This document shows positions 7,176 through 61,120 of a stretch of DNA of 64,000 nt, piece after piece. The stretch comes from Paludibacter sp. (GTDB lineage Bacteria > Bacteroidota > Bacteroidia > Bacteroidales > Paludibacteraceae), in NCBI GenBank assembly GCA_024710005.1, contig JANJVQ010000014.1, forward strand, positions 1-64,000. Reading direction: 5' to 3'. The position numbers and the translations under genes were made by a program. A model generated the notes under the pieces. That model saw nothing but the letters and a program-made list of their open reading frames with translations, ran no database searches and had not been told where the DNA came from. Numbering within the stretch: position 1 is the first letter of the stretch; each line of letters starts with the position of its first letter.

Positions 7176-7207
7176 TTAAAAAAAAACGCTCAAGCAATGC
7201 TGTCAGA

Positions 7208-7235
7208 AGTCTGGAGTCTGGAGTCCGGAGACTGG
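7208..7235. repeat. Heptamer array (AGTCTGG type)
   Basis: Four 7-bp units, AGTCTGG twice, then AGTCCGG and AGACTGG. The complementary strand resembles the CTCCAGACTCC stretch of the array at 61012-61053, so both belong to one repeat subfamily. It sits between the IS element and the GH13 promoter. Confidence 0.75.
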
Positions 7236-7247
7236 TGTCACTTATTT

Positions 7248-7321
7248 CAAACGTTTGCGCTTATCCCGATAGTTAAAATCAGTACAATAATATTGATAAA
7301 CAAGGCTTTCCCATATATTTG
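7248..7321 (+). promoter_or_regulatory. GH13 gene promoter with LacI-type palindrome
   Basis: A perfect 10-bp palindrome CAAACGTTTG lies at 7248-7257, with the central CG typical of LacI/PurR-family operators. A -7 element TATATTTG (7314-7321) is 46 bp upstream of the ATG at 7368. LacI-type regulators often control glycan genes, but no such regulator is in this window, so the operator call is tentative. Confidence 0.4.
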
Positions 7322-7367
7322 CAACTGTAAATAATTCAATCAGATAACTCAAAATCATTATTTAAGT

Positions 7368-11438: not shown

Positions 11439-11791
11439 TTCTTCTCAATTAATTGTATGATTTCTTTTAATTCCTCCGCTGATATTTTTTGTTTTTCGAC
11501 AAAGAAACTAACCATTTCCTTGTAGGAGTTCTCAAAATAATTCCGGACAACACCTGAAAGATACTTTGATTTGTACTCGCTTTCCTCCAGGGTGGGACTG
11601 TATTCGTAAGTGTTACCGTAAGCTTTTGCCGTGAGATAGCCTTTTCGCTTTAAATTCTTTACGATGGATGCTACCGTGGTGTAGGGCGGACGGGGTTCGG
11701 GCATCCTGTCAAGGAAATCTTTGATGAATCCTTTGCCGTGCTGAAAAATGATTAACATCATTTCTTCTTCCTGATGAGTGAGTTTTTCCAT
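11435..11791 (-). CDS. BlaI/MecI-family transcriptional repressor
   Basis: 118 residues, the usual size for BlaI/MecI repressors. The N-terminal winged helix carries LTHQEEEMMLIIFQHGKGF and PPYTTVASIVKNLKRKGYL, with the recognition helix after TTVASIV. The C-terminal half is the dimerisation region and has the position where the partner protease would cleave. It is co-transcribed with the M56 protease gene. Two abutting dyads at 11829-11866 are the likely operators, so the pair should be autoregulated. Confidence 0.94.
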   Translation of the reverse strand: MEKLTHQEEEMMLIIFQHGKGFIKDFLDRMPEPRPPYTTVASIVKNLKRKGYLTAKAYGNTYEYSPTLEESEYKSKYLSGVVRNYFENSYKEMVSFFVEKQKISAEELKEIIQLIEKK

Positions 11792-11948: not shown

Positions 11949-12005
11949 TAAAACACTTTCCTCACATTTTCGAAACACCTTTGTAATGCACCCCTTATAC
12001 TTTTG
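11949..12005 (+). promoter_or_regulatory. Candidate Pho-type promoter of the beta-helix lipoprotein gene
   Basis: The -7 element TACTTTTG lies at 11998-12005. Nine bp upstream is TGTAATG (11982-11988), and in the same 11-bp frame are CGAAACA (11971), CCTCACA (11960) and TAAAACA (11949). The match is more degenerate than at the other five phosphate promoters, but it shares their phase and 9-bp gap. Confidence 0.45.
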
Positions 12006-12044
12006 CAGCGATATTTCATGTCAAAAAATTAATTTGAAACAAAA

Positions 12045-13445
12045 ATGAGAAAATTATTGCTGAATTTTGCTGTTGTATTGCTGAGTGCAATCACCGTATT
12101 TTCTTCGTGTGAAGAAAAAGTGGATCCGGATGCCGATTTGAAAGAAAACCCTTATGAGGCTATTATCAAAACAAAGATTACCGGTACCCGTAATTTCGTG
12201 AAGGATTCTGTTTACATCCTGATCGGACAAATAAATGTAGAAGGTATACTGAATATTGAACCGGGAACCATTATCAAAGGCGATAAGAAAACGAAAGGCA
12301 CGCTGGTTGTTGTCCCCGGTGGAAAAATCTTTGCAGAAGGAACTCCAACTCAACCCATTGTGTTTACCTCACGCATGCAAGCGGGCGAAAGAGGCGCTGG
12401 TGACTGGGGTGGTATCATCCTGGTTGGAAGAGCGCCTGTTAATCAGTCGAATGCGACGGTTGAAGGGCTGTCGAGCCCGGTTGATTATGGAACAGCTACC
12501 ATTCCGGACCGGGATGAGAACGACAACTCGGGCGTGCTGAAATATGTGCGTATTGAGTATTCGGGCATTGCCTTGCAGCCGGATAAAGAAACGAACGGTT
12601 TGACGATGTGTGCAGTAGGTAAAGAAACTGAGATTTCGCATGTACAGGTTTCGTATTGCGGCGACGATTCATTTGAGTGGTTCGGTGGCAACGTGAATGC
12701 CAAATACCTGATTGCTTACCTGGGACTTGACGACGATTGGGATGTGGACTTCGGTTATTCCGGTAATGTGCAGTTTGGACTGAGCATACGGAATCCCCGC
12801 GTAGCCGACGTGTCAGCTTCTAACGGGTTTGAGTCGGACAATGATGGTAGTGGATCAGCAGCTTCCCCGAAAACATCGGCTGTTTTTTCTAATATGACCG
12901 TTATTGGTCCGCTGAAAACTACCGGCGATAAGAATGTGAATGCCAACTATGGAGCTGCCATGCATTTGCGTCGAAATACCTCGATATCAATTTTTAACTC
13001 GGTATTTGCCGGATGGCACACCGGATTGTTACTCGATGCAACTACCACCTATACAAATGCTACCAATGGCGATATGGCATTACAAAATGTGGCTATCGTA
13101 GGAACAAAAGGCAAAGCGCTAACCGGTGCTGCCGGTGTAACGGATGATAATGCCACTTCATTTTTCAATACGCCCGCTTTCAATAACTCTATCATAGCCA
13201 CTGTGGCGGATGCAAAAATTTCAAATTCATTCTTCGATGCATCAAAAGAAGGTAGTGCTGCGATTCCATCTTCTTTCCTGCCGGAAGCGGGTTCTCCTTT
13301 GTTGAGTACCGGAGCTTTTGCTCATGCTAAGTTGCAACATGTTTTCTTCGATAAAACAGCAACTTACAAAGGTGCTTTCGGTGCAACCGACTGGACTAAA
13401 GAAGCCTGGGTGAATTTTGATCCGCAAAATGCCGATTATCGTTAA
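12045..13445 (+). CDS. Beta-helix-type lipoprotein, putative outer-membrane phosphate-uptake partner
   Basis: 466 residues. The signal peptide ends in a lipobox at FSSC (Cys21) followed by EEKVDPDADL, an acidic stretch typical of surface lipoproteins. The mature protein begins with a LNIEPGTIIKGDKK and KIFAEGTPTQPIVFTS region and continues with Gly/Asn-rich strands resembling a right-handed parallel beta-helix. This family is widespread in Bacteroidota and poorly characterised. Its place next to a porin, PhoBR and phosphate transporter genes, and its Pho-type promoter, suggest that it helps capture phosphate or phosphorylated compounds at the surface. That function is inference only. Confidence 0.75.
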   Translation: MRKLLLNFAVVLLSAITVFSSCEEKVDPDADLKENPYEAIIKTKITGTRNFVKDSVYILIGQINVEGILNIEPGTIIKGDKKTKGTLVVVPGGKIFAEGTPTQPIVFTSRMQAGERGAGDWGGIILVGRAPVNQSNATVEGLSSPVDYGTATIPDRDENDNSGVLKYVRIEYSGIALQPDKETNGLTMCAVGKETEISHVQVSYCGDDSFEWFGGNVNAKYLIAYLGLDDDWDVDFGYSGNVQFGLSIRNPRVADVSASNGFESDNDGSGSAASPKTSAVFSNMTVIGPLKTTGDKNVNANYGAAMHLRRNTSISIFNSVFAGWHTGLLLDATTTYTNATNGDMALQNVAIVGTKGKALTGAAGVTDDNATSFFNTPAFNNSIIATVADAKISNSFFDASKEGSAAIPSSFLPEAGSPLLSTGAFAHAKLQHVFFDKTATYKGAFGATDWTKEAWVNFDPQNADYR

Positions 13446-13482
13446 ATATTAGTGAGCGTTTCAAATATTGCAATCAATCAAT

Positions 13483-13515
13483 AAACCTGTCAGGTTAGCA
13501 AAACCTGTCAGGTTT
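13483..13515. repeat. Palindromic repeat pair AACCTGTCAGGTT
   Basis: Two copies of a 13-bp near-palindrome (arms AACCTG/CAGGTT, one central base) at 13484-13496 and 13502-13514, 18 bp apart. It lies in the 90-bp gap between the beta-helix lipoprotein and MORN-type genes. I recall similar palindromes as dispersed elements in other Bacteroidota. No -7 element is evident here, so the next gene is probably read through. Confidence 0.7.
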
Positions 13516-13535
13516 GCATAGTTAAAACAATTTAT

Positions 13536-14003
13536 ATGAAAAAAGTCCAAATTCTTATCCTGCTGTTAACTGTATCAACCCTCTTTGCCCAGCAAAACTC
13601 AATTGTAATCAGTAATGGTGTTTTTTTTACCGATGCTACGCAGACAAAATTGTATAGCGGTGAATATAAGGAGTTTTATGAGAATGGAGCCCTGAAGGTA
13701 GAAATGAATATCCGCGACGGAAAACCCGAAGGTGCTTACATAGTCTATTTCCCCAATGGCCGTCCGAATGAGGTAAGAGCATACCGGAACGGGGAGTTCC
13801 ACGGCATCTGGAGAACCTACAACGAAGCCGGAATGCTGATTGCTGAGGCAGAATATCGTAACAATAAGAAACATGGTGCCTGGCATGTGTGGGACGATAC
13901 CGGCATCATGCGCTATGAAATGCAATACAATAACGGTAAGAAATCCGGTACCTGGTACATGTGGGATGAGAAAGGCAAATTAATATCCGAAAAACAATAT
14001 TAA
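13536..14003 (+). CDS. Exported MORN-variant (YwqK-type) repeat protein
   Basis: 155 residues with a cleavable signal peptide (ends near TLFAQ). The mature part consists of about four to five repeats of the MORN-variant kind, such as GEYKEFYENGALKVE, GAYIVYFPNGRP, GIWRTYNEAGML and GAWHVWDDTGIM. Database annotations often call this family 'YwqK family antitoxin', but no toxin gene is adjacent. Export and the phosphate neighbourhood make a periplasmic or surface structural role more likely. It probably belongs to the transcript of the upstream lipoprotein. Confidence 0.8.
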   Translation: MKKVQILILLLTVSTLFAQQNSIVISNGVFFTDATQTKLYSGEYKEFYENGALKVEMNIRDGKPEGAYIVYFPNGRPNEVRAYRNGEFHGIWRTYNEAGMLIAEAEYRNNKKHGAWHVWDDTGIMRYEMQYNNGKKSGTWYMWDEKGKLISEKQY

Positions 14004-14019
14004 TTTCATTTCATGTTAT

Positions 14020-14065
14020 TGTATAATATATGTCACATCTTTGTAATAATATCCCGTTATTTTTG
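14020..14065 (+). promoter_or_regulatory. Candidate Pho box and -7 element, small carboxypeptidase-like gene
   Basis: Three heptamers in an exact 11-bp frame, TGTATAA (14020), TGTCACA (14031) and TGTAATA (14042-14048), are followed by a 9-bp gap and the -7 element TATTTTTG (14058-14065). The ATG is at 14107. The layout is that of PhoB boxes, 7-bp direct repeats with 4-bp spacers. Confidence 0.65.
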
Positions 14066-14106
14066 TATCGTGAAAATGTAAAAATAACGACACCAAACAT
14101 ATAAAA

Positions 14107-14448
14107 ATGAAAAAAGTAATTTTATTGGTTATCGCGACATTGTTGGCATTCAGCCATATCAATGCAAATGGAAAAATAGAACAGGACATGCTTGTGGAAG
14201 TGACAACAACCGGAAATAAAATATATGGTGTTGTGCTTGATAAACAAACCAATGAAAGTCTGGCCGGTGTAGCAATCTCAGTTGGTAATCAAAAAGTTTA
14301 TTCTGATTTGGATGGTCAGTTTATGCTTAATTATACTGATAAAGGTAAATATGAGCTGAAAATCAGTATGATTTCTTACGAAGATCAGGTTTTAATCGTT
14401 GATATGAAGTCAGATGTCAGTAAAAAAGTTCATCTGAGTCAAAGATAA
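14107..14448 (+). CDS. Small exported carboxypeptidase-regulatory-like domain protein
   Basis: 113 residues: a signal peptide (ends near SHINAN) and one carboxypeptidase D regulatory-like beta-sandwich (~35-110) with IYGVVLDKQTNESLAGVAIS and a YSDLDGQFML turn. The same fold forms the N-terminal extension of the TonB-dependent receptor at 23270-26065. A free-standing copy with its own Pho-type promoter is unusual. It might be a partner of the receptor or porin. The function is unknown. A strong terminator follows at 14477-14506. Confidence 0.75.
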   Translation: MKKVILLVIATLLAFSHINANGKIEQDMLVEVTTTGNKIYGVVLDKQTNESLAGVAISVGNQKVYSDLDGQFMLNYTDKGKYELKISMISYEDQVLIVDMKSDVSKKVHLSQR

Positions 14449-14476
14449 GGAATAAAAAAGAAGACATAACATGATG

Positions 14477-14506
14477 ACGCGGGGTATTTACTCCGCGTTT
14501 TTTTTG
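14477..14506 (+). terminator. Rho-independent terminator
   Basis: Stem ACGCGG (14477-14482) / CCGCGT (14493-14498) with a 10-base loop, followed by an eight-T run. It lies 28 bp after the small carboxypeptidase-like gene and separates it from the porin gene. Confidence 0.85.
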
Positions 14507-14578
14507 TGATAACCTTATTTATGAATGAACTATGTATATGGCATTTCTAAAAGATTCTTAAGATCGTTTTAATTTGTT

Positions 14579-14642
14579 TGTAATATATATTACATTTGTA
14601 TTCTTAATGTAACACGAATATAACATCCGGTGGCTACTTTTG
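14579..14642 (+). promoter_or_regulatory. Candidate Pho box and -7 element, porin gene
   Basis: TGTATTC (14597), TGTAACA (14608) and TATAACA (14619-14625) repeat every 11 bp. A 9-bp gap then leads to the -7 element TACTTTTG (14635-14642), 39 bp before the ATG. A 16-bp perfect palindrome TGTAATATATATTACA lies further upstream at 14579-14594. The second strong heptamer sits where a -33 element would be, as expected for class II activation. Confidence 0.72.
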
Positions 14643-14681
14643 CGCCCGAATTTGAAAAATATATTACAAAAGTATTAAAAT

Positions 14682-15929
14682 ATGATGAACAGACCTTTTC
14701 GTAAGTTTTTACTTCCTTTTTTGTTTTTATGTTTTTGTTTGTTTGCTGATGCACAAAAGCTTTCTGTAACCGGGTACATGCAACCACAATGGCAATTGGG
14801 TGAAGAAACAGCAGATTTGCAAGTAGGTACTGACAAGGAAAATGATGTAAGAGAGATGTACAACCGGGCAGGTATCCGCAGGGGACGAATAAAATTTTTC
14901 TATGATGATGGTAACCTGGCTTCCGGTGGATTTCAGTTTAACGTGATTGATAAACCAGGCTTAAAAGGAGCGCAAGTGCAAATTAAAGAGCTTTATTTGA
15001 ATGTTAAATCTCCACTCAATAAAGCAAGTTCTTTCCAGGCAGGAATATTTAACCGTCCATTCAGTTTCGAGGTTAATTATTCAACATCTGAACTTGAATC
15101 TCCTGAACGTGCCCGTATTATAACCACCCTGCTGCCGGATGAATGTGATTTGGGCGGCATGTTCATACTGACTCCCTCAAAAGGTTCTCCCCTGGATTTT
15201 ATAACATTACAGGGAGGTCTGTTTGCCGGCAACGGCATCAATCCCGAAACAGACAGCCGAAAAGATTTTATTGGACAGATAGTTGCTGAAAAGCCGATTG
15301 GCGATATGCATGTTGGTCTTGGTTTTTCTTATTATAATGGCGGGGTTTACCAAACGAACAGGAATGTGTTTACCATGGGAGATGGAGGTTTTACATTCAA
15401 CAATGATGTTTCCAACGAAGGTTCTTATGCGAAAAGAGAATACCTGGGAGTTGATGCTCAATGGTATTTTAATAGTTTATTTGGACGAACACAATTACGT
15501 GGGGAATACCTTTGGGGGACTCAGCCTGGTAATGCCTTCGATAGCGAAAGTCCGAGTCGCGCTGCTTTACCTTCTCCCGAGGATACTTATATCAGACCTT
15601 TCAGCGGAGGTTATGTGTCGCTGATACACAATATTATCCATACTCCTTTGTCGGCAGTACTAAAGTATGAAGTGTATGATCCCAATACAGGAGTAAGTGG
15701 AAGTGACATTGGTTCGTTAGCCAGTTTTACAGGAGTCGCAGATGTAATGTATACTACTTTAGGTGCAGGATTCTGCTGGCAAATGACACCTGCTTTAAAA
15801 GCGACTCTTTTTTATGAAATGAACAGAAACGAAACGTCATCACTGCTGGCAAACAACGACTATACAAAAGATTATGCTTCGGATAGAAAAGATAATGTGC
15901 TGACTGTCCGGGTACAATATAAATTCTGA
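14682..15929 (+). CDS. OprO/OprP-type phosphate-selective porin
   Basis: 415 residues. A signal peptide (ends near FADAQ) is followed by a 16-18-strand beta-barrel pattern typical of the phosphate-selective porin O/P family, with GYMQPQWQLG, RGRIKFFYDDGNLASGGFQF, LKYEVYDPNTGVSG and a terminal aromatic strand VLTVRVQYKF. The family gives a diffusion path for anions such as phosphate or polyphosphate across the outer membrane. It has its own Pho-type promoter and sits directly before phoB and phoR. Anion selectivity cannot be read from sequence alone. Confidence 0.88.
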   Translation: MMNRPFRKFLLPFLFLCFCLFADAQKLSVTGYMQPQWQLGEETADLQVGTDKENDVREMYNRAGIRRGRIKFFYDDGNLASGGFQFNVIDKPGLKGAQVQIKELYLNVKSPLNKASSFQAGIFNRPFSFEVNYSTSELESPERARIITTLLPDECDLGGMFILTPSKGSPLDFITLQGGLFAGNGINPETDSRKDFIGQIVAEKPIGDMHVGLGFSYYNGGVYQTNRNVFTMGDGGFTFNNDVSNEGSYAKREYLGVDAQWYFNSLFGRTQLRGEYLWGTQPGNAFDSESPSRAALPSPEDTYIRPFSGGYVSLIHNIIHTPLSAVLKYEVYDPNTGVSGSDIGSLASFTGVADVMYTTLGAGFCWQMTPALKATLFYEMNRNETSSLLANNDYTKDYASDRKDNVLTVRVQYKF

Positions 15930-15942
15930 TTAAATCGTTAGC

Positions 15943-15999
15943 TGTAACACAAATGTAACATGTATTACATCATATCGAAACATCAACGAACTAAATTTG
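15943..15999 (+). promoter_or_regulatory. Candidate Pho box and -7 element, phoB gene
   Basis: Two identical TGTAACA heptamers (15943-15949 and 15954-15960) with a CAAA spacer form a perfect 11-bp repeat. In the same frame follow degenerate TTACATC (15965) and CGAAACA (15976-15982), then a 9-bp gap and the -7 element TAAATTTG (15992-15999). This suggests that the regulator controls its own gene. Confidence 0.7.
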
Positions 16000-16032
16000 T
16001 AACGGTTATTTATTCACGATTAATTTTTCAAT

Positions 16033-16722
16033 ATGAATCCTTACCGTATTTTAGTTGTAGATGATGAAGAAGATTTATGTGAGATTCTTCAGTTTAATCT
16101 CGAAACAGAAGGTTACGAGGTTGAAGTTGCCAATAGTGCAGAAGAAGCTTTAAAGCTGGATATGGCGTCTTTTCACCTGATTTTACTTGATGTGATGATG
16201 GGCGAAATGTCGGGTTTTAAGATGGCTCGTTTGTTACGTGACAATCCGCATACCGCGAAAATTCCGATTGTTTTTCTTACAGCCAGAGATGCTGAGAATG
16301 ATAAGCTTACCGGTTTCAATATCGGGGCAGATGATTATATAGCCAAACCATTTTCCATTCGGGAGGTAATAGCAAGGGTAAAAGCCGTTATCCGCAGGTA
16401 TGCAGCTCCTGATGAGGAAAAACAGGAAGACAGGTTGCTTGTGTATGATGGTTTGGTCATGAATCTTGGTAACAAAAAGGTAATTGTTGATGGGGAAGAG
16501 GTGCAATTTACCAAAAAGGAGTTCGAGATGTTGCGGTTGTTTCTGGAATATCGTAACCGGGTTTTTACACGTGATGAAATTCTCTCCCGGGTCTGGTCGG
16601 ATGATGTGATTGTTCTGGACCGGACCATAGATGTTAATATAACCCGTCTGAGGAAAAAGATTGGTCCCTATGGTAAAAATATTGTAACCCGACTGGGTTA
16701 TGGCTACTGTTTTGAAATCTGA
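16033..16722 (+). CDS. phoB: PhoB-type response regulator
   Basis: 229 residues. The receiver domain (1-~120) has acidic pocket Asp10/Asp11, phospho-acceptor Asp53 in LILLDVMMGEMSGF, Thr83 and Lys105. The winged-helix OmpR/PhoB DNA-binding domain (~135-229) has EFEMLRLFLEYRNRVFTRDEILSRVW and ends RLGYGYCFEI. It is co-transcribed with the kinase gene 5 bp downstream. Assignment to PhoB rests on linkage to the porin, PiT transporter and kinase and on the 11-bp direct-repeat boxes in nearby promoters, since OmpR-type regulators look alike. Confidence 0.88.
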   Translation: MNPYRILVVDDEEDLCEILQFNLETEGYEVEVANSAEEALKLDMASFHLILLDVMMGEMSGFKMARLLRDNPHTAKIPIVFLTARDAENDKLTGFNIGADDYIAKPFSIREVIARVKAVIRRYAAPDEEKQEDRLLVYDGLVMNLGNKKVIVDGEEVQFTKKEFEMLRLFLEYRNRVFTRDEILSRVWSDDVIVLDRTIDVNITRLRKKIGPYGKNIVTRLGYGYCFEI

Positions 16723-16727
16723 ATAAG

Positions 16728-18461
16728 ATGAAGCTGAATCGCAGGTTGTTTTTGTATTTCTTTTCGACTTTTTTTCTGTTGATGACTGTAATCGGTTTTT
16801 TTCAGTATCAGCGGGAAAAAGCTTTTCGTACAGAACAACTGGATCAGCTGTTGTCGACTTATAATCAAACGATTCATAAGTTTATCGAATTGAATCCGTG
16901 GGATCCCCGCGCTCTTTCTTCTTTTTTACAGGTTTTTCCCGATAGCAACCTCCGGGTAACAGTTATTGCACCTGATGGCGTTGTTATGTACGATTCCTAT
17001 GTACAGGATGTCGGTCAGCTTGAGAATCATATTCACCGGCCGGAAATTATGGATGCCATGGATAATCCTTTGGGGAAAGGCGTCTCTATACGGAAATCTA
17101 CATCAACCAATATCGATTTTTACTACCTGGCGCATAAGTTCGAACATATTTATGTCCGCAGTGCCTTGCCATATAATATAGGACTGGCAGTGATGCTGAA
17201 GGCCAATATGCATTTTCTGTATTTTATGGCTTCGGTGTTATTGCTGGCTTCGTTGCTGTTGTTCTTTATTTCCAAGAATATCACACGTTCCATCGACCGT
17301 CTTCAGTTGTTTCTTTCTAATATTGAAAATGAGAAAGTAGTTGATTCGGAAATTATTTTCCCGGGGGATGAATTGGGCCAAATCAGCAGTAATATCGTAA
17401 AGACGTATAAAAAACTATGGAAGACGAAATCGCAGGTTAAAAGAGAGCGTGAAAAACTGATTCAGCATCTTCAGATATCTCAGGAAGGGTTGGGAATTTT
17501 TTCTGCTGAGAAGAAAGAAATTCTTGTCAATTCACATTTTATATTGTACTCCAGAATACTGGCCGACACAAATCTGGAATCGGTTGATGCCTTGTTCCTG
17601 ATTCCTGAGTTTGCTGAAATTAATGCTTTTGTTGATGAAGGATTGCGAAGTAAAGAACTGAACCGGAAGCGGGTTACCATTGAAAAGAGCGGTAAAGTTT
17701 TTTTAATTCAATGCATTGTTTTTATAGATGAAACCTTTGAGATATCTATTAATGATATAACCGCGCAAGAGCAGGAGAACCGTTTGAAGCGTCATTTGAC
17801 CCAGAATATTTCCCATGAGTTGAAAACGCCGGTAAGCAGCATTCTTGGATATATGGAAAGTATTGTCAGTAATCCCGACCTTACCCCGGAAAGACAACAG
17901 TTCTTTATCGAGCGCTCCTTTCAGCAGGCGCAACGTCTAACCGCTTTGTTACAGGATATTTCAACCCTGAATAAAATTGAAGAAAGTACGGCGTTGTTTG
18001 AGAAAGAGATTGTAGATATTGCTGAAATTGTAAAAGATGTGTTGAATGATGTACATCTACAACTTGAGGCTAAACATTTTACGGTGATAAATGATTTTCC
18101 TGATGAGTTGAAAATCAGGGGTAACCGGTCATTGATATATTCAATTTTCAGAAATCTGACCGACAATGCACTGGCTTATGCCGGGACGAATATAACCCTG
18201 GAAATGAGTTGTTACCGCGAAGATGAACAGTTTTATTATTTTTCGTTTTCAGATAATGGGAACGGCGTAGCAGAAGAGCATCTTGTGAGAATCTTCGAAA
18301 GGTTTTATCGTGTTGATAAGGGACGAAGCCGTAAAATGGGTGGCACAGGTTTGGGGCTTGCTATCGTTAAGAATGCAGTCATCCATCATGGTGGAACCAT
18401 TACGGCAAAAAACATCAGTACAGGCGGACTGAATTTTATTTTCTCTTTAAAGAAAAACTGA
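16728..18461 (+). CDS. phoR: PhoR-type sensor histidine kinase
   Basis: 577 residues. Two membrane segments (~7-25 and ~160-182) flank a ~135-residue periplasmic sensor region. A HAMP-like linker, a PAS-like region (~245-345) and the HisKA domain with ISHELKTPVSSILGY (phospho-His363) follow. The HATPase domain has NLTDNALAYA (N box), FSDNGNGV (G1) and GGTGLGLAIVKN (G2). The large periplasmic loop is unlike E. coli PhoR but common in Bacteroidota kinases of this group. The gene starts 5 bp after phoB and forms an operon with it. Confidence 0.87.
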   Translation: MKLNRRLFLYFFSTFFLLMTVIGFFQYQREKAFRTEQLDQLLSTYNQTIHKFIELNPWDPRALSSFLQVFPDSNLRVTVIAPDGVVMYDSYVQDVGQLENHIHRPEIMDAMDNPLGKGVSIRKSTSTNIDFYYLAHKFEHIYVRSALPYNIGLAVMLKANMHFLYFMASVLLLASLLLFFISKNITRSIDRLQLFLSNIENEKVVDSEIIFPGDELGQISSNIVKTYKKLWKTKSQVKREREKLIQHLQISQEGLGIFSAEKKEILVNSHFILYSRILADTNLESVDALFLIPEFAEINAFVDEGLRSKELNRKRVTIEKSGKVFLIQCIVFIDETFEISINDITAQEQENRLKRHLTQNISHELKTPVSSILGYMESIVSNPDLTPERQQFFIERSFQQAQRLTALLQDISTLNKIEESTALFEKEIVDIAEIVKDVLNDVHLQLEAKHFTVINDFPDELKIRGNRSLIYSIFRNLTDNALAYAGTNITLEMSCYREDEQFYYFSFSDNGNGVAEEHLVRIFERFYRVDKGRSRKMGGTGLGLAIVKNAVIHHGGTITAKNISTGGLNFIFSLKKN

Positions 18462-18462
18462 A

Positions 18463-19668
18463 TTAGTTGCTGTAAGCTACACGGAAGCCTCTTGTGCTGT
18501 GATAACTGTCGGGGAAATGACTGCGACGCATAGCCGAACGGGAATATAAACTGTTGATGTACCAACTTCCCCCACGCGTAACCCTCATGGAACCCAATGC
18601 CGGCCCGGTTGGATTTGTTTGTGCTGTTGTCGTATACATGTCATACCAGTCTCCGCACCATTCCCACACATTCCCATGCATATCATGTAATCCCCATGCG
18701 TTAGCCGGAAATGAACCGACCTGACTTGTTCCTGTTGGCGAAGTCGAATTTACATTGGTACAGGTGCCATAAGGAAGTTTCCAGTCGTAGTTCGCATCGG
18801 CATCAGTGAGGCAGTTGCCGGTGAAAAACGGAGTTGTTGAACCTGCGCGACAGGCATATTCCCATTCAGCCTCGGTGGGAAGTCTTCCTCCGGCGTAACG
18901 GGCAAATTCGTCTGCGCCATACCATGTTACATTGACAACCGGATGGTTTTCAAAACCACTCACAGGCGCCCATCCTGTGGTAGGATTGAATGTGAGTCCT
19001 ATCCTGGATTCAGCAAGAATTAATACCTGATCCGGATATCTTCCTGTGCTGAATTTTCCGTTACCCTTGACGTTATTTGTGTTCAGAAATAGTGCAAATT
19101 GCTCATTGGTGATTTCATATTTGCTGAGTTTAAAGGCACTCAATGTCACCGTATGCTGGGTTTCATCATTGCTTCGTCCCGGCTCTGTACCCGGACTTCC
19201 CATAACAAATGTCCCTGCCGGAATGGATACTGTCGAAATTTCTGGTACATAAGTTGAAAAAGCTACTTCGTCTCCATATATGATTCCGTGCTCATTGATT
19301 GCATAAGCCCTAACATAATATCTCAAATTGGGTTCAAGACCTGTAATACTGGAAATGAAATTCCCGGGGCCAATTCCGTCGTTTGTATGGTTGTCGTTGA
19401 TAGTCGGGTTTGGGGAGTTGCTCCAGCACACACCACGTCCTGTTATGGTTACTTCGGCCCTGTTCTTGATACTTCCACCTGTATTTACAGATGTGCGTAT
19501 GGTACCTCCCGATTGGGCAGACTCAATAGTGATGTTTGAAATGGGCTTTGTGGCGATATTGGTCAGAAAACGAGCATCAATAAACGATTCACAACCGCTT
19601 AGCAATGCGACAATAAATACAGTTAAACTGTAGATTGCGTTTTGTGATGTTAAACCTCTTTTTTTCAT
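18463..19668 (-). CDS. SUMF1-domain lipoprotein with fibronectin-like domain
   Basis: 401 residues from the ATG at 19668. The signal peptide ends in a lipobox LLSGC followed by ESFID. An earlier in-frame start at 19776 lies upstream of the -7 box and has no signal peptide, so it is rejected. A fibronectin-III-like region (~45-135) with NPTINDNHTN is followed by a C-terminal SUMF1 (formylglycine-generating-enzyme-like) domain with ISTVSIPAGTFVMGSPG, GGRLPTEAEWEYACRAG and MHGNVWEWCGDW. Most lipoproteins of this family are not sulfatase-modifying enzymes; GldK-like and C-type-lectin-like relatives exist. Its role is unknown, and it is convergent with phoR. Confidence 0.85.
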   Translation of the reverse strand: MKKRGLTSQNAIYSLTVFIVALLSGCESFIDARFLTNIATKPISNITIESAQSGGTIRTSVNTGGSIKNRAEVTITGRGVCWSNSPNPTINDNHTNDGIGPGNFISSITGLEPNLRYYVRAYAINEHGIIYGDEVAFSTYVPEISTVSIPAGTFVMGSPGTEPGRSNDETQHTVTLSAFKLSKYEITNEQFALFLNTNNVKGNGKFSTGRYPDQVLILAESRIGLTFNPTTGWAPVSGFENHPVVNVTWYGADEFARYAGGRLPTEAEWEYACRAGSTTPFFTGNCLTDADANYDWKLPYGTCTNVNSTSPTGTSQVGSFPANAWGLHDMHGNVWEWCGDWYDMYTTTAQTNPTGPALGSMRVTRGGSWYINSLYSRSAMRRSHFPDSYHSTRGFRVAYSN

Positions 19669-19741
19669 TGTAAAGTATCCGGTAAAATTGTTATTAAACA
19701 GGTAAATATTTATCAATGTATTCTTTTCAATTTCCAACATA

Positions 19742-19749
19742 CAAAGATA
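19742..19749 (-). promoter_or_regulatory. SUMF1 lipoprotein promoter, -7 element
   Basis: The minus strand reads TATCTTTG, 73 bp upstream of the ATG at 19668. No Pho-type heptamers occupy the matching frame. Confidence 0.6.
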
Positions 19750-19882
19750 TGAAATTGTTATGTAATTTAACTTCATTTTAGATTTGTATTAACATTAATT
19801 TAGATAATAATCAGGTATTTAATGATTGTAAGAATAAATAACGAAGAATGCTTTAAGTTGAGCGTGTTTTTTAATTATTTTT

Positions 19883-19890
19883 TATCTTTG
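19883..19890 (+). promoter_or_regulatory. SDR epimerase promoter, -7 element
   Basis: TATCTTTG, 50 bp before the ATG at 19941. The 19669-19940 gap between the divergent genes is A/T-rich and shows nothing beyond the two promoters. Confidence 0.65.
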
Positions 19891-19940
19891 TAGTGGCTTG
19901 TATTGCTGATTTTTTTTTAATTAAATTTTTGTAATTAGTT

Positions 19941-20915
19941 ATGCGTTATTTCGTTACCGGATGTACCGGGTTTATTGGTATTCATCTTTGCAGGAAGTTG
20001 ATTGCTGAAGGGCATGAAGTGTTCGGATTGGTTAGAAATCCCGGGAAAATTCCACCTGATTTGTTGGGGAGACTGAAAGAAATCAAAGGAGGGTTGGACG
20101 TTTTCGAACGTATTGATTTGGTCTTACCTGAGGTTGATGTTGTGATACATCTTGCAGGTGTAATTACAGGTCGTAGCAGCAAAGACTATGAGCGCATGAA
20201 TTACGAATCCGTGGTTCATTTGCTCGCGTGTCTGAACCGCCAGCATTGGAAACCGAAGCGTTTTATACTGGCTTCATCGCTTGCAGCGGCGGGACCCAAC
20301 AGAAACAGCCTGAATTTACGGGAGTCGGATAAAGCGGCTCCGATTGAACCCTACGGTTTAGCCAAACTCAGGGCAGAGCAGTTGCTGAAGTCGCAACCAT
20401 TTCCAACAACAGCCTTTCGTCCACCCGCGGTAATCGGGCCCGGTGATCCGGCTATGCTGACGCTTTTTAAAATGGTAAACAGGGGTTTTGCTCCGCTTCC
20501 ATCGGGTAAGGTTCAGTTATTAAGTTATATTTATGTTGGTGATTTGGTGGAAGCCATTTACATCATGTCGAAAGAAATAAGTGAAGAGCATAAATTGTAT
20601 TTTACTACTGCTGCTGATGTAATTACCAACCATGATATAATCAGGGAGATTGCAGCTTCTTTAGAGAAAAAAGCATTGATTGTGCGTATCCCGAAAGCAT
20701 TGATATGGTTGATTATGGTTTTATCCACAGCCATATCTTATGTGTTCCGGGTTCCCAATTTCTATGATTACCGGCAATATAAGCAAATGACCACCTCGTC
20801 ATTTGTTTGTACAAGCGAATTGTTGACAGCTGAAACGGGATGGAAAGCAAAAACCGGATTGGCTGAAGCCATCCGGTTAAGTGCTTTGGGGTATAAGGAA
20901 CTAAAGTGGTTGTGA
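19941..20915 (+). CDS. NAD-dependent epimerase/dehydratase (extended SDR)
   Basis: 324 residues. The N-terminal Rossmann motif TGCTGFIG (6-13) is followed by VDVVIHLAGV and the active-site YGLAK (Tyr and Lys of YxxxK), typical of extended short-chain dehydrogenases that act on nucleotide sugars or steroids. A hydrophobic stretch near residues 254-270 (LIWLIMVLSTAISYVF) suggests membrane association, as in some 3-beta-HSD-like members. It lies between the phosphate genes and is convergent with the PiT gene (9-bp gap). Its substrate is unknown and no Pho box was seen. Confidence 0.88.
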   Translation: MRYFVTGCTGFIGIHLCRKLIAEGHEVFGLVRNPGKIPPDLLGRLKEIKGGLDVFERIDLVLPEVDVVIHLAGVITGRSSKDYERMNYESVVHLLACLNRQHWKPKRFILASSLAAAGPNRNSLNLRESDKAAPIEPYGLAKLRAEQLLKSQPFPTTAFRPPAVIGPGDPAMLTLFKMVNRGFAPLPSGKVQLLSYIYVGDLVEAIYIMSKEISEEHKLYFTTAADVITNHDIIREIAASLEKKALIVRIPKALIWLIMVLSTAISYVFRVPNFYDYRQYKQMTTSSFVCTSELLTAETGWKAKTGLAEAIRLSALGYKELKWL

Positions 20916-20924
20916 TAATTCCTT

Positions 20925-23159
20925 TTATTGTTTCATTTTTACCAATCTTTTCTGTGATTTCATCAGGTTGCTTGATTGTAGAGCAATGATTTTTGTTTCG
21001 TTCAGTAAGCTGAGGAAAAGGATGCTGTTGCGTGTACCTGAATCTTTGGATTTTGCCCTTTTGATTTGATTCCGGGTGGCCAGCGCATAGTAGTCGGCAA
21101 TGAGATGTCTCTTTTCGAGTAGATTGTCGAATCGGGAATAATCCCACGACTGAATCATCGATACGAAATCAGAGGCGACTTCAATGACCTGTTCGCTAAG
21201 CCTGGTGAGGTCGTTGATTTGTTCTTTTGTGAATCCCTCGTGGTTATCGTTGATGTACTTAAAGCTTGATTCAGTCATTACTTTCAGGGATTTGGATATT
21301 TCGTAGAAATAATCTATTACCTGAATGTAAAATTGTCCTACCTCAACCGGAGCGCTTTCAAGACGTTTAAGGGTTGGTACAACCTCATAATGACGGCGGT
21401 TTTTGTATTTACGATACAATAAATCAGCTTCTTTATTTAGTTGATTGAGTTTCTTTCTGTCTTCATTAAACAGTCCGTCCAAAGTCTCTCTGTAAATCCT
21501 GATTGTGGTCTCAATAGCTTCTTCCATCTCATTAGAACAAACATGAATTAGGTCTGTTTCGTTTTTGATTTCTAGAGTCGTTTCTTTGGCTTCTTCTTTT
21601 GCAACTCTTTTCTTGTGCACTAAGGTAAATTGGATAATCAGGAATACAACAAGAATGAGTAATCCGATGATAGCATATATACCACCATACATCAAAAGAA
21701 ACGCAACGGTTGCAGAAGCTGTAAATGCAGCTACAGCCGTAAGAAACCATCCGCTGATAACTGTTAACACGCCGGTAATCCGGTACACCGCACTTTCACG
21801 CCCCCAGGCCCGATCGGCCAGTGAAGTACCCATGGCCACCATGAATGTTACATATGTAGTTGATAAAGGTAGTTTTAATGACGTCCCGAGTGAAATAAGC
21901 ATGGCTGCGACGGTCAGGTTGACCGAAGCCCGGATAAGGTCGAAGGACGGATCGTTTGGTTCTTTCTTTTCAAGGGGTTTGAAGCGACTTTCGATAAAGT
22001 TCTTGACCTTTTGCGGAGTAATGTAATTGACAAACTTACCAATATTTAGTGCATTTCTGACCAATGAACGGGAGGCACTGGTTGAAGAGAATTGTTCAAG
22101 TCCTTCTCCCTGTCGGGAAAGATTTACTTCTGTCTTGGTTACGGAGCGGGATTTTTTGTTGAACCATAATGCCAGTACCATAACAACTCCTGAACCTAAC
22201 AGGAACCGCCAATCGACATTTACAGCTTCAGACAATCGTCCCATGTATAAATTATCTATGTTACCGCCCTGTGCTACAAATTCTCCGGCAAACTGATATG
22301 AACTCAGTCCGGCCATGAACACGCCAATAAAGTTTACCAGGTCATTTCCTGCAAACGATAATGCAAGGGCAGCTGTCCCCGTTAAAATGATAACTTTCAA
22401 AATTTTCACCTTGAAAAGATGCTGAAGTAAAGCCATCAGCCCGGTCATGCCCAGGAATGTGTACAGCAGGATGATTGCTGTATGATCATTGAGGTATTGA
22501 ATGTTTTCTTTGGAAATCAGGGTTGTGCTTTTCAGTCCTTTCAGGATAGCAAAATAGGCAATAGCCGTAAGGGCGATGCCTCCCCAGATGGCGCCGACAT
22601 ATTGAAATGACTTGTGGTAATTAAAAGAGAAAATGATGCGGGAAATATACATAACCACCGAACCTACAGCAAAGGAAATTAAAACCGAGACAAAAATGCC
22701 GGAGATGATTTTAAGCGCTTTGCCGGTGTTGATATATTGCGTCAGATCGACAACCTCGTTGTTCTGCCAGATGGTGAACAGGGAAACAGCTACGGCGGCT
22801 CCGAGTAATTCGAAAACAAGCGATACGGTTGTAGAGGTAGGTAGGCCGAAGGTGTTGAAAACATCTAAAAGTATTACATCGGTAATCATTACGGCTAAAA
22901 AGAGCATCATGATACTGGCAAAGGTAAATTTTTCAGGGTAAAACACCCCGCTTCGGGCAATTTCCATCATGCCGGTGGAGAAGAATGATCCCAGAATTAC
23001 GCCGACCGAGGCGACGGTGAGAATGACCCATAAAGGTGCGACTCTGGAACCGACGCTGGAATTCAGGAAGTTCACGGCGTCGTTTGCGACTCCTACCACC
23101 AGGTCGAGTGCTGCGAGAGCCAATAATACAAGTACGATGACAATGTAAATGCTATCCAT
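20925..23159 (-). CDS. PiT-family inorganic phosphate transporter with C-terminal DUF47/PhoU-like domain
   Basis: 744 residues. Two PiT repeats are visible: GVANDAVNFLNSSVGSRV near the N-terminus, and AGNDLVNFIGVFMAGLSSYQ with a late LKLPLSTTYVTFMVAMGTSL. About ten to twelve membrane segments run to residue ~545. The last ~200 residues form a soluble helical DUF47/PhoU-like domain (e.g. SNEMEEAIETTIRIYRE), which may act as a built-in gate. PiT carriers move metal-phosphate with protons or sodium. This fusion is twice the size of a simple PiT and is frequent in Bacteroidota. It has a Pho-type promoter at 23205-23239. Confidence 0.93.
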   Translation of the reverse strand: MDSIYIVIVLVLLALAALDLVVGVANDAVNFLNSSVGSRVAPLWVILTVASVGVILGSFFSTGMMEIARSGVFYPEKFTFASIMMLFLAVMITDVILLDVFNTFGLPTSTTVSLVFELLGAAVAVSLFTIWQNNEVVDLTQYINTGKALKIISGIFVSVLISFAVGSVVMYISRIIFSFNYHKSFQYVGAIWGGIALTAIAYFAILKGLKSTTLISKENIQYLNDHTAIILLYTFLGMTGLMALLQHLFKVKILKVIILTGTAALALSFAGNDLVNFIGVFMAGLSSYQFAGEFVAQGGNIDNLYMGRLSEAVNVDWRFLLGSGVVMVLALWFNKKSRSVTKTEVNLSRQGEGLEQFSSTSASRSLVRNALNIGKFVNYITPQKVKNFIESRFKPLEKKEPNDPSFDLIRASVNLTVAAMLISLGTSLKLPLSTTYVTFMVAMGTSLADRAWGRESAVYRITGVLTVISGWFLTAVAAFTASATVAFLLMYGGIYAIIGLLILVVFLIIQFTLVHKKRVAKEEAKETTLEIKNETDLIHVCSNEMEEAIETTIRIYRETLDGLFNEDRKKLNQLNKEADLLYRKYKNRRHYEVVPTLKRLESAPVEVGQFYIQVIDYFYEISKSLKVMTESSFKYINDNHEGFTKEQINDLTRLSEQVIEVASDFVSMIQSWDYSRFDNLLEKRHLIADYYALATRNQIKRAKSKDSGTRNSILFLSLLNETKIIALQSSNLMKSQKRLVKMKQ

Positions 23160-23204
23160 CCGAAATTAATTTATTTGATTAAAATATGATTCTTGTTCTC
23201 GGTG

Positions 23205-23239
23205 CAAAGGAATGAAATACATGTTACAAAAATGTTACA
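23205..23239 (-). promoter_or_regulatory. Candidate Pho box and -7-like element, PiT gene
   Basis: On the minus strand two identical TGTAACA heptamers (23239-23233 and 23228-23222) stand 11 bp apart. A 9-bp gap leads to TTCCTTTG (23212-23205), one mismatch from TAnnTTTG. The start codon at 23159 lies ~45 bp downstream. The layout and gap equal those of the porin promoter. Confidence 0.7.
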
Positions 23240-23269
23240 AAAACATGTAGAGTGTGTAACAAAGTAAAA

Positions 23270-26065
23270 TTATTTCAACGTCCAGTTAATTCCCAGCGAC
23301 CATGTTCTACCTGTGTTGTAGCGTTTGTTGATAAGCGTAATTGTGTGTGCTGTATCATCTTGCTGGTATTCATATACCTGCTGTGTGAGGTGATCCTGCG
23401 CCAGCAGATCTTTAATGCCGAATTTGAGTTCAATGTGTTTACCCAGTTTCTTGTTGAAAGTAAAGTCGATTACATGACGGGGCATTTCGTAAATATCTGG
23501 GACTTCTACTATGCCCTGATTTAGTTGTGCGGCAACCAGAATTCTTTTCCCGGTTACGTTATACATGAGAGAAGCAGACAAACCTTTATCTTCGGGTTGG
23601 TAATATAAACCAACATTGACTACATAGGGCGACTGACCCTGTAAAGCCCGGTTACGTTCGGTTTCCAGTTCTTCAAACTCAACCATGCTGGAGATTAAAG
23701 ATGCATTCAGGTTAATGTTCATGTCTTTTAATCCCATAAATGCAAGTGATTTCTTTAGTTCGAGTTCGATTCCGATATTGGTGGCGCCTTTGGCATTGTC
23801 GAACGAGAAGAGAGAACCCTGACCGATACTGACCATTTCTATCGGGTTTCTGAAGTGCTTGTAAAATGCAGCTAAGGTAAATGTTTCGCCGGGAGTAGGG
23901 TAGTGCTCAAAACGTAAATCGACGTTTTGAATGCTTGCAACCTGTAGACCAGGGTTACCGACTACCGAATTTTTCTCGGTAAAGTCGTAATAGGTTATCG
24001 GGGCTATTTCCCTGAACTCCGGTCGGTTGATACTGCGGGAATATGCAATCCTGAGTAAATTTTTTTCGTTAAGATTATAAGAAGTGTTCAGTGAAGGGAA
24101 GAAATCAATTGCCGGGTTGTCGACACTGACAGGGGCGCTCGCATGATAATATCCCTGTAGCATAAGGCGGTTGAACTCAGCTCTTACTCCCGCGTTGATA
24201 TTGAAATTACCTATGGGCAAAACAAGTGCGAGGTAACCTGCCGATAACCAGTTTTGGGCTGTATACGCGTTGGCAATATTGGTTTGTTCGTCGGCACTGA
24301 TTACTTTGCCGGTACCCAGATAAGGTTCTGTAAACAGCGATTCAAAAGGCAACTGGTTGATTTCGGCTGTACTCAGGTTGCCGTAAGCATTCCGGTAGGT
24401 GATACTCCTTTCCCTGAAATTCCTGGTTTTGAATTCGTTGTAAAGTCCGGCTTTTGCAGTCGATTGCTGGCCGATCAGGTTGAATTTCTTTTCCCGGTTC
24501 AGCGCAGCGGTAAGTACATATTCGTGGTTAGTCATATACAAACGACCCAGTTCGTTGATGCTGGGTACGTCGGGCAGGACATACTGGTATACGCCGGGAG
24601 ATACTTCCTTGTTGCTGCGGTTTTGACGGTCGGGCTCTATCCGATTGGCATAGGCCAAACCGATATTCCAGTCTAACAGGTTGCCATCGAGATTCTTAAT
24701 CTTGTGATTGCCGCTAAACTGACCAGAATAGGTAGTACGTGAAGAATACTGATTGCTGAAATATTGAAAATTACTCATCCTGTAGTTGTTCCATCCTTCA
24801 GCATTGGCTGTTTTATCGATGCCAATCTGGTTTAACAGGTTTTTAAATTCCAACCTTGTTCCTTCCGCATTTTGATAGGACCAATTGTGTAGTATGCCAA
24901 TTTTAAAGTCACGGGAATAGATATCTGATGTATACCGATACAAATAGATAGGTGTGTCATTTACTTCATCATATCTTTCGTACATGTAATTCAACATATT
25001 GTCGCGGGTGCTGTAAGAATTGCTATAGCTTACCGATGTCATGGTCCCGATTCGGGCACCAAGGTCTAAATTCCATTTCTTACCCATTGAAAACGAAAGT
25101 TTCTGATTGGGAAGTGCAATGAGTGGTTGAGCAACCCACCGGGACGGCAATTGTAATGCGGCAGCATCCCGTTTGGTTAGGGAGATTTCATTCAGGTTGG
25201 CCGGAAAATCAGCTGGCAAAGCACGGGAGAGCGAACCAAGACCCAATAAATCGATTGGCATTAAATCAGGCAATAGCATTTCTTTAAAAGTGGTTACATC
25301 ATTATAGGCAATCCCGTATTCTACCTGCATAAAATCATCATCGGGAATGTTTTTGGTTGTAATTTTGATGAATCCACCGGTAGCTTCAGCAGCATGCTCT
25401 GCCGCGCCGGTTTTGTATATCAATAGATTATCAATCATATTGCTGGGTATGGCATCAAAGGAAAAAGCCTTAACATCCGTCTCACTACTGGGTGTTGCGG
25501 CATTGTTAAGCCAAACGTTGTTATAGCGTTGGTTTAATCCCCTGACAATGATGAACCGATTATCCTGAATAGTTACGCCGGGTACCCTTTTTACGACTTC
25601 AGAAGCATCCCGGTCGAGTGTTCGTCCTATTTGTTGAGATGAGATGCCGCTAACTACCTGAAGCGAAGTCCGTACACTCCTGATCATTGACAGGTCGGTG
25701 TCGGTTTTCATCCTGGCCACCACCTGTACGCTTTCAAGTTCCATGGAAGCTTCTTCCATATCAATATTAAGTATCACAGGTTGATTCTTCGAAACAGTTA
25801 CATCGGTAATTTTTCGTGTAGTATAGGAAACGTAAGAAACAATCAGGGTGTATTTCCCGGGTGCAACTTTAATTTCAAAATTACCGTCAATATCCGCGGT
25901 GGTACCTGTTGTGGTTCCTTCAACCAGGATGGCGGCGCCGGTGAGCGGTTCGTTGTATTTCCGGTCGGTGACAGTTCCCCTGATTACAGACTGAGCCTGC
26001 ACAGATAAAAAAATTGAAAAGAAAAACAGGATGATAGATAAATAAAGAAATTGACCTTTCGTCAT
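23270..26065 (-). CDS. TonB-dependent outer-membrane receptor, putative phosphate-related
   Basis: 931 residues from the ATG at 26065. A longer frame from a TTG at 26095 overlaps the -7 box and is rejected. A signal peptide (ends near LSVQAQ) precedes a carboxypeptidase-like domain (~30-105, GTVTDRKYNEPLTGAAILVEG), a plug (~110-225, VVKRVPGVTIQDNRFIIVRG) and a 22-strand barrel ending in NTGRTWSLGINWTLK. It is not a SusC: it lacks the SusC signature and no susD gene is adjacent. The Pho-type promoter and its neighbours suggest uptake of phosphate esters or a phosphate-rich ligand. Confidence 0.88.
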   Translation of the reverse strand: MTKGQFLYLSIILFFFSIFLSVQAQSVIRGTVTDRKYNEPLTGAAILVEGTTTGTTADIDGNFEIKVAPGKYTLIVSYVSYTTRKITDVTVSKNQPVILNIDMEEASMELESVQVVARMKTDTDLSMIRSVRTSLQVVSGISSQQIGRTLDRDASEVVKRVPGVTIQDNRFIIVRGLNQRYNNVWLNNAATPSSETDVKAFSFDAIPSNMIDNLLIYKTGAAEHAAEATGGFIKITTKNIPDDDFMQVEYGIAYNDVTTFKEMLLPDLMPIDLLGLGSLSRALPADFPANLNEISLTKRDAAALQLPSRWVAQPLIALPNQKLSFSMGKKWNLDLGARIGTMTSVSYSNSYSTRDNMLNYMYERYDEVNDTPIYLYRYTSDIYSRDFKIGILHNWSYQNAEGTRLEFKNLLNQIGIDKTANAEGWNNYRMSNFQYFSNQYSSRTTYSGQFSGNHKIKNLDGNLLDWNIGLAYANRIEPDRQNRSNKEVSPGVYQYVLPDVPSINELGRLYMTNHEYVLTAALNREKKFNLIGQQSTAKAGLYNEFKTRNFRERSITYRNAYGNLSTAEINQLPFESLFTEPYLGTGKVISADEQTNIANAYTAQNWLSAGYLALVLPIGNFNINAGVRAEFNRLMLQGYYHASAPVSVDNPAIDFFPSLNTSYNLNEKNLLRIAYSRSINRPEFREIAPITYYDFTEKNSVVGNPGLQVASIQNVDLRFEHYPTPGETFTLAAFYKHFRNPIEMVSIGQGSLFSFDNAKGATNIGIELELKKSLAFMGLKDMNINLNASLISSMVEFEELETERNRALQGQSPYVVNVGLYYQPEDKGLSASLMYNVTGKRILVAAQLNQGIVEVPDIYEMPRHVIDFTFNKKLGKHIELKFGIKDLLAQDHLTQQVYEYQQDDTAHTITLINKRYNTGRTWSLGINWTLK

Positions 26066-26092
26066 TGCAGTATCGTGTTTGAAATTTTGCTG

Positions 26093-26149
26093 CAAAACTA
26101 CGAAACGTGTATTTCAGATATGAGAAGAAGATGTTACAATCAGGCTACA
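26093..26149 (-). promoter_or_regulatory. Candidate Pho box and -7 element, TonB-dependent receptor gene
   Basis: On the minus strand, TGTAGCC (26149-26143) and TGTAACA (26138-26132) are 11 bp apart. Degenerate heptamers CTTCTCA and TGAAATA continue the frame to 26110, and a 9-bp gap leads to the -7 element TAGTTTTG (26100-26093). The distance from the good box to the -7 element is 31 bp, exactly two 11-bp steps more than at the porin promoter, and the same as at phoB. Confidence 0.62.
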
Positions 26150-61000: not shown

Positions 61001-61011
61001 AATATTTAATT

Positions 61012-61120
61012 GTCTACGGTCTACGGTCTACGGTCTCCAGACTCCGGTCTATAGAAACCTGATCGTTATTCACTATTCGCTATTCGCTATTCGTTATTCG
61101 CTTTCCGTTTTCCGCTTTCC
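61012..61120. repeat. Two heptamer arrays between hisF and mtaB
   Basis: First array (61012-61053): GTCTACG three times, then GTCTCCA, GACTCCG, GTCTATA. Second array (61065-61120): eight units of GTTATTC, ACTATTC, GCTATTC (twice), GTTATTC, GCTTTCC, GTTTTCC and GCTTTCC. The second array runs into the 3' end of mtaB. Confidence 0.88.

Follow-up and report, generated by a model that had tools for sequence, protein, structure and literature searches.

The question raised by this locus is whether the heptamers close to TGTAACA that recur every 11 bp in front of six of its genes are Pho boxes, through which the PhoB encoded among those genes would control a phosphate-acquisition set. Within the window (the whole stretch of 64,000 nt that was analyzed), the phoB- and phoR-like genes that the preliminary description had placed in the middle of the cluster were found to pass the NCBIfam equivalog cut-offs for Bacteroides PhoB and PhoR: the response regulator gene phoB (16033..16722, plus strand) scored 364.5 bits against NF053854 (cut-off 270) over profile positions 1 to 225 of 225, and the sensor histidine kinase gene phoR (16728..18461, plus strand) scored 781.2 bits against NF053855 (cut-off 500) over positions 2 to 583 of 583. 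The other genes with repeats encode: (i) a probable beta-helix-type lipoprotein (12045..13445, plus strand), homologous to a lipoprotein encoded beside the Flavobacterium TonB receptor; (ii) a small CarboxypepD_reg_2 protein of 113 aa (14107..14448, plus strand; Pfam PF13715); (iii) a porin-like protein (14682..15929, plus strand), whose Porin_O_P match (PF07396, 16.5 bits) falls under the cut-off of 20.9; (iv) a PHO4-family phosphate transporter of 744 aa (20925..23159, minus strand; PF01384, 96.3 bits, cut-off 33.7), with its best PHO4 stretch at residues 25-333 and no second Pfam family reported; and (v) a TonB-dependent receptor (23270..26065, minus strand) with CarbopepD_reg_2 and Plug domains, homologous to the phoB-adjacent receptor of Flavobacterium. 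No Pfam family scored above cut-off for the 12045 protein; its structural model (mean pLDDT 75.5, pTM 0.79) is nearly all beta. Among the 50 Foldseek neighbors listed (of 384), tailspikes, pectate lyases, and polygalacturonases are frequent; we take these to be parallel beta-helices, and none of the listed neighbors is at E ≤ 0.001. Before the phosphate cluster, the product of 10158-11791 (minus strand) has matches of BlaR1-like and TonB C-terminal type, and its gene adjoins that of a BlaI/MecI-type repressor. Elsewhere in the window, the intergenic regions at 61010-61110 and about 7150-7330 are rich in short repeats like GACTCCAGACTCCAG and CTATTCGCTATTCG.

The repeats were examined in relation to the presumed core promoters. 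The preliminary description had placed phase-locked, TGTAACA-like repeats of 11-bp period before all six genes, with the frame ending 9 bp before the −7 element in each; all six frames are present in the window sequence, and the gap between the last frame unit and the −7 element is exactly 9 bp at 6 of 6 promoters. Before phoBR (15943..15999, plus strand), an exact TGTAACA pair at 15943 and 15954 is followed by the degenerate units TTACATC (15965) and CGAAACA (15976) and by the −7 element TAAATTTG (15992-15999). The array of the PHO4 transporter gene (23205..23261, minus strand) consists of TGTTACA (23255-23261), CTACATG (23244-23250), and TGTAACA (23233-23239 and 23222-23228), with TTCCTTTG at 23205-23212 as its −7 element; that of the TonB-dependent receptor gene (26093..26149, minus strand) consists of TGTAGCC (26143-26149), TGTAACA (26132-26138), and degenerate units at 26121-26127 and 26110-26116, with TAGTTTTG at 26093-26100. 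Shorter arrays precede the 14107 gene (14020..14065, plus strand; TGTATAA, TGTCACA, and TGTAATA, then TATTTTTG at 14058-14065) and the porin gene (14597..14642, plus strand; TGTATTC, TGTAACA, and TATAACA, then TACTTTTG at 14635-14642). The −7 elements read TAnnTTTG at five of the six promoters, the exception being the PHO4 transporter element (23212, minus strand), which is without the A. Good pairs reach the 9-bp point at 14107, 14682, and 23159 and stop 31 bp short of the −7 element at 16033 and 26065, as had been described. The array of the 12045 lipoprotein gene (11949..12005, plus strand; TAAAACA, CCTCACA, CGAAACA, and TGTAATG, then TACTTTTG at 11998-12005) is indeed weaker than the others, its units matching the heptamer at 5, 5, 4, and 5 of 7 positions.

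The 9-bp frame was also recovered blindly. For each promoter, the best two-unit pair was chosen from among all TTTG words up to 130 nt from the gene start, combined with all spacers of 4 to 14, and spacer 9 received 5.0 of the 6 votes (0.5 expected) at a mean best pair score of 12.5 out of 14. Four promoters chose it outright; 14682 tied 9 with 10, and 12045 tied 9 with 7. For comparison, 19 further gene starts in the window were selected as controls, of which 15 had a TTTG in range; these gave spacer 9 a total of 2.3 votes (1.4 expected) at a mean score of 7.9; among the controls, the SDR gene start at 19941 scored 9 at best (at spacer 5), and the SUMF1 gene start at 19776 had no TTTG in range. 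Because its best frame ties spacer 9 with 7, the 12045 array would not stand alone.

On the 3.24-Mb genome, the strict forms of the motif are nearly confined to the phosphate cluster. TGTAACA-N4-TGTAACA was found with at most one mismatch at three sites, all of which lie inside the cluster, the exact phoBR pair among them; the reversed-pattern control gave none. With N9 and TANNTTTG appended and up to three mismatches allowed, four of the five sites were in the cluster, and the control gave one. The pair alone at three mismatches was detected 446 times versus 362 for the control, such that the signal drowned in the background. At exactly two mismatches there were 36 places, two of them opposite-strand readings of exact window sites, and among the 25 examined only 14107 and 26065 were intergenic and in frame. 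Loose scanning of the genome thus provided no convincing further members; a weak in-frame match before an era-like GTPase gene (L008, a name read from sequence) is probably due to chance. Since looser settings merge with the background and the examined two-mismatch places add only 14107 and 26065, the part of the regulon that is recognizable in this genome is this cluster.

The exact TGTAACA pair was then sought in 60 genomes (36 of the same genus, including this one, and 24 of other families) irrespective of gene positions. It was present in 23 of the 36 same-genus genomes (own included) and in 1 of the 24 from other families, compared with a single reversed-control match in all 60. Twenty-six of the 42 places were kept after dropping the own genome's two, 13 of one genome (G009), and one place without a locus of its own in another (G015). 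Fifteen of these 26 adjoin a phosphate gene or a counterpart of the cluster's porin or TonB receptor gene: PHO4 (7 cases, one of which, L034, is cut by a contig end and was assigned from its first codons), pstC (5), phoB (1), the porin gene, divergent from pstC (1), and a homologue of the window's TonB receptor (1; L023, where the pair faces an unassigned outer-membrane-like protein). No phosphate gene was assigned to the other 11. L017 hardly differs from the own genome, L019 and L034 belong to one genome, and the relatives are not mutually independent. When −7-like elements were located within 100 bp downstream of the pairs, 16 of 20 were found at 9 + 11k bp, as opposed to 0 of 10 on the upstream side; the corresponding P-value, about 7 × 10−14, assumes uniform and independent phases, an assumption that related genomes violate. 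The 13 exact pairs of G009 (L029 and L036), 11 of which read TGTAACATCTATGTAACA and some of which are closely opposed, have the look of a dispersed repeat. At L010 and L033, exact pairs precede the genes of two small proteins (154 and 121 aa) that look secreted and resemble each other by eye; these are a possible further target, and the L010 protein matched no Pfam family above cut-off.

The reverse approach, from genes to promoters, led back to the same frame. PstC matches (E ≤ 10−60) were found in 20 of the 60 genomes and PHO4 matches in 32. Two pstC matches were left out (L127 for lack of upstream sequence and L138 as partial). The array is present at each of the 11 close orthologues of pstC whose upstream DNA was available (84 to 100% identity), with the −7 element at 20 or 31 bp; no array was detected in the seven more divergent pstC upstream regions, one of which offered only 42 bp. 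Within the genus, the box accompanies pstC in genomes with Pst. Of the 36 genomes of the genus, 17 gave a PHO4 match, 14 a PstC match, 3 both, and 8 neither. In weighted voting, spacer 9 received 11.0 of 11 votes for pstC, 10.0 of 13 for same-genus PHO4, 5.8 of 13 for PHO4 of other families (whose words include TTTAACA and CTTAACA), and 10.2 of 17 for phoB (18 best-scoring Bacteroidales loci). For PHO4, the own place (L139), a partial one (L153), and four without a locus were dropped from 34, and the voting also set aside L140, which is nearly identical to the own genome. For phoB, the own place and two that lacked a locus were dropped and L073 was added, giving 30 promoters, of which the voting leaves out the 12 lowest-scoring, including L305 (61% identity, no array). 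One PHO4 and one phoB promoter were likewise dropped from the voting, having no TTTG in range. By a cruder three-unit measure, 13 of the 30 phoB promoters score at least 15 of 21, 7 of them in frame. An in-frame array at its own promoter was seen for none of the 12 Bacteroidales PhoB homologues with the lowest scores. When the consensus word was permuted, the observed mean was reached by 1 of 200 words for the PHO4 set (all families pooled), by 0 of 200 for the pstC set, and by none for the 30 phoB promoters. A phylum search with NF053854 (E ≤ 10−70) returned phoB-like loci mainly from other classes, which were compared with the window proteins; before the phoB-like genes of other class members, TTAAC-like repeats were seen by eye.

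The arrangement was compared with that of known Pho boxes. The textbook Pho box is built of 11-nt direct-repeat units with 7 conserved and 4 less conserved nucleotides, and its consensus differs between species (PMC4415409). The repeats examined here have this 7 + 4 build, stand at phosphate-acquisition genes (11 of the 26 blind places being without an assigned one), and end at a fixed 9 bp before the core element in all six frames, as in Escherichia coli K-12, where 7-bp words of 11-bp period likewise end exactly 9 bp before TATAGT (phoA), TATTTT (pstS), and CATAAT (phoB), −10-like hexamers that were picked by position and not from annotation. The preliminary description had noted the general likeness to the PhoB-box layout, and E. 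coli phoA, pstS, and phoB do have the same geometry. In E. coli pstS, moreover, the row has four units, one of them degenerate (TTACATA); phoE is a less clear case, its TTTAACA word being followed at the corresponding position by TAAAAA. The two systems differ in their letters, TGTCAT(A) in E. coli and TGTAACA in the window, such that the units are not of the CTGTCAT sub-type, and in their core elements, a TATAAT-type −10 as opposed to the Bacteroidota −7 element TAnnTTTG. The layout is thus not new but that of the classical Pho box, and the repeats are very probably a familiar device written in Bacteroidota letters. Motif-first searches reach phosphate genes and gene-first searches return to the motif in the same frame, which supports the earlier proposal of a candidate Pho regulon. 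We consider it highly probable that the repeats are Pho boxes, tandem predicted sites of the PhoB encoded at 16033 that would control the phosphate-acquisition set.

Flavobacteriaceae provided a comparison for which expression data are published. A scan with Flavobacterium PhoB gave 80 named loci; F. johnsoniae is absent from these and was reached through synteny with F. hibernum, whose gene order (glycosyltransferase, OprP-like porin, phoR, phoB, TonB receptor, and lipoprotein, with the first two named from PMC8115612) is that of Fjoh_0541-0546. The TonB receptor of the window is 25% identical to its Flavobacterium counterpart (E = 10−38), and the 12045 lipoprotein is 36% identical to its Flavobacterium homologue (L201; E = 3 × 10−41); a homologue of the lipoprotein was found at 49 of the 80 Flavobacteriaceae loci. 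By synteny, the receptor and lipoprotein correspond to Fjoh_0545 and Fjoh_0546. As in the window, these two genes stand beside phoBR in F. johnsoniae, and they are strongly induced by Pi depletion, with listed changes of 8.02 and 9.91, respectively, next to 3.06 for phoB (PMC8115612); the column was read as log2 because the threshold in the text is log2FC > 4. In the same listing, OprP (−1.3, FDR 0.25) and phoR (0.76) are not significantly changed, although the porin gene of the window has an array. The listing also includes ECF sigma factors and a PhoX-like gene with the PhoX Pfam accession (PMC8115612); a PhoX-family search of 61 Flavobacterium genomes gave 0 matches at E ≤ 10−40. At 41 of the 80 loci the TonB receptor gene is divergent from phoB, and the 39 without a usable divergent TonB gene were dropped. 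The 41 promoters, when anchored on TTTGC, have TAAC cores every 11 bp and match TAACA at 3.87 of 5 positions per unit at spacer 9, versus 1.19 to 1.89 at the ten other spacers; anchoring on strict TAnnTTTG left only four promoters, with apparently wrong anchors. The box letters differ, NNTAACA in Flavobacteriaceae and TGTAACA in the window. In each of four named Flavobacterium genomes, a strict three-unit array retrieved the TonB-receptor promoter; the four other array matches in these genomes equaled the four control matches, and other Pi-induced genes were not retrieved. Because the array search found only the TonB-receptor promoter beyond the control, we do not claim the array for the whole F. 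johnsoniae Pho regulon. The terms "Pho box" and "motif" are absent from the main text of PMC8115612.

These data also bear on the extent of the regulon. In one alternative, the PhoB sites are real, their members are 14107, 14682, 16033, 23159, and 26065, and 12045 is not directly regulated. The low unit matches and tied frame of 12045 favor this shorter list, to which we give rather less than even weight. Against it, the last 12045 unit likewise lies 9 bp before its −7 element, and the F. johnsoniae counterpart is strongly Pi-induced (PMC8115612), though there the gene is a neighbor of the TonB receptor gene, and the two may be transcribed from one promoter.

The letters of the box were also compared with the protein that would read them. 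The recognition helix of PhoB aligns as DVHIRRLR in E. coli, DVNITRLR in the window, and DVHIRKLR in Flavobacteriaceae, and these residues presumably contact DNA. Among 12 array-bearing Bacteroidales loci (one of them doubtful), 11 have NITRLR and one HITRLR. Among the Flavobacteriaceae loci, RTIDVHIRKLR gave 80 matches in the 80 named ones and 30 in the 30 unnamed ones. Several Bacteroidales with NITRLR had no array at phoB (L290, L294, L299, and some more distant ones). We infer from these alignments that the change in the helix may explain the change in the letters. It is an even question whether the architecture as a whole (11-bp head-to-tail units and a 9-bp gap) is ancient and common to Proteobacteria and Bacteroidota despite the differing core element, such that only the helix and the letters would have drifted, from DVHIRRLR with TGTCATA in E. 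coli to DVNITRLR with TGTAACA in Bacteroidales and DVHIRKLR with NNTAACA in Flavobacteriaceae.

The preliminary description had known of no Bacteroidota Pho box of this form, and within the open-access literature searched this stands for the spacing, though not for related letters. A conserved TTTAACA was reported by DAP-seq for PhoP of Riemerella anatipestifer, likewise a Bacteroidota regulator, which is upregulated in phosphate starvation and for which a binding site of 35 nt lies ahead of its own operon (PMC9603813). In Bacteroides fragilis, the PhoB protein BF1576 shifts a 512-bp pstC promoter fragment, and the genes dependent on this protein include pst genes and those of phosphatases and a phosphate permease (PMC3547664); the words "consensus" and "motif" are absent from the main text of that paper. 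We found no description of the TGTAACA box with its spacing in the open-access literature that was searched.

A second alternative is that one or more other regulators of the OmpR family, with tandem sites of about 11 bp, bind the repeats, whose presence at phosphate genes would be PhoB's work only in part. Similar motifs can be read by other regulators, the Riemerella PhoP motif having been likened to that of E. coli ArcA in a paper whose account of the motif, in the text available, includes neither array geometry nor distance to a −7 element (PMC9603813). Even so, we regard this as improbable: the targets found without regard to genes are largely phosphate genes, phoB itself included, the strict set of the own genome surrounds phoBR, and from Bacteroidales to Flavobacteriaceae the PhoB recognition helix and the box letters change together, although this is a correlation of two groups. 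The last alternative, that TGTAACA-like words of AT-rich promoters fall in frame by accident, could draw on the near-background count at three mismatches and the tied 12045 frame and is scarcely credible, as controls with reversed patterns, with permutations of the consensus word, at other spacers, on the far side of the motif, and at other window promoters make such an origin unlikely for five of the six promoters, reversed patterns, the upstream side, other spacers, and the control promoters all failing where these five succeed, and the same frame recurs in other families.

For the reading of the repeats as Pho boxes, we infer PhoB binding and phosphorylation, contact with the polymerase, and induction at low phosphate. 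On phosphate shortage, PhoR would phosphorylate PhoB, which would then line up head to tail on the 11-bp TGTAACA repeats. The gene-proximal PhoB would be fixed 9 bp upstream of the −7 element, roughly at the position normally taken by a −33 element, and would recruit RNA polymerase, and the extra and degenerate upstream units may lengthen the PhoB row. A compact set would thereby be switched on, comprising the TonB receptor, the porin, the PHO4 transporter, the small CarboxypepD protein, phoBR, and perhaps the lipoprotein. How phosphate is sensed is a separate matter: PstC was not found in the own genome (E ≤ 10−60) though PhoBR is present, which puts in doubt sensing via the Pst transporter, as in E. 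coli.

Bacteroidota are an abundant phylum in the gut, soil, and sea, and to our knowledge few of their regulator-binding codes have been described. The results predict an operator of exactly defined spacing for the response to phosphate starvation in the Bacteroidales and Flavobacteriaceae, or at least in a part of them; therefore, members of the phosphate regulon can be proposed from sequence. They also suggest that a TonB receptor and a beta-helix-like lipoprotein are tied to phosphate uptake beyond Flavobacterium. If the architecture is ancient, with drift confined to the helix and the letters, there would be a readable Pho-box code for a phylum whose regulons are hard to predict.
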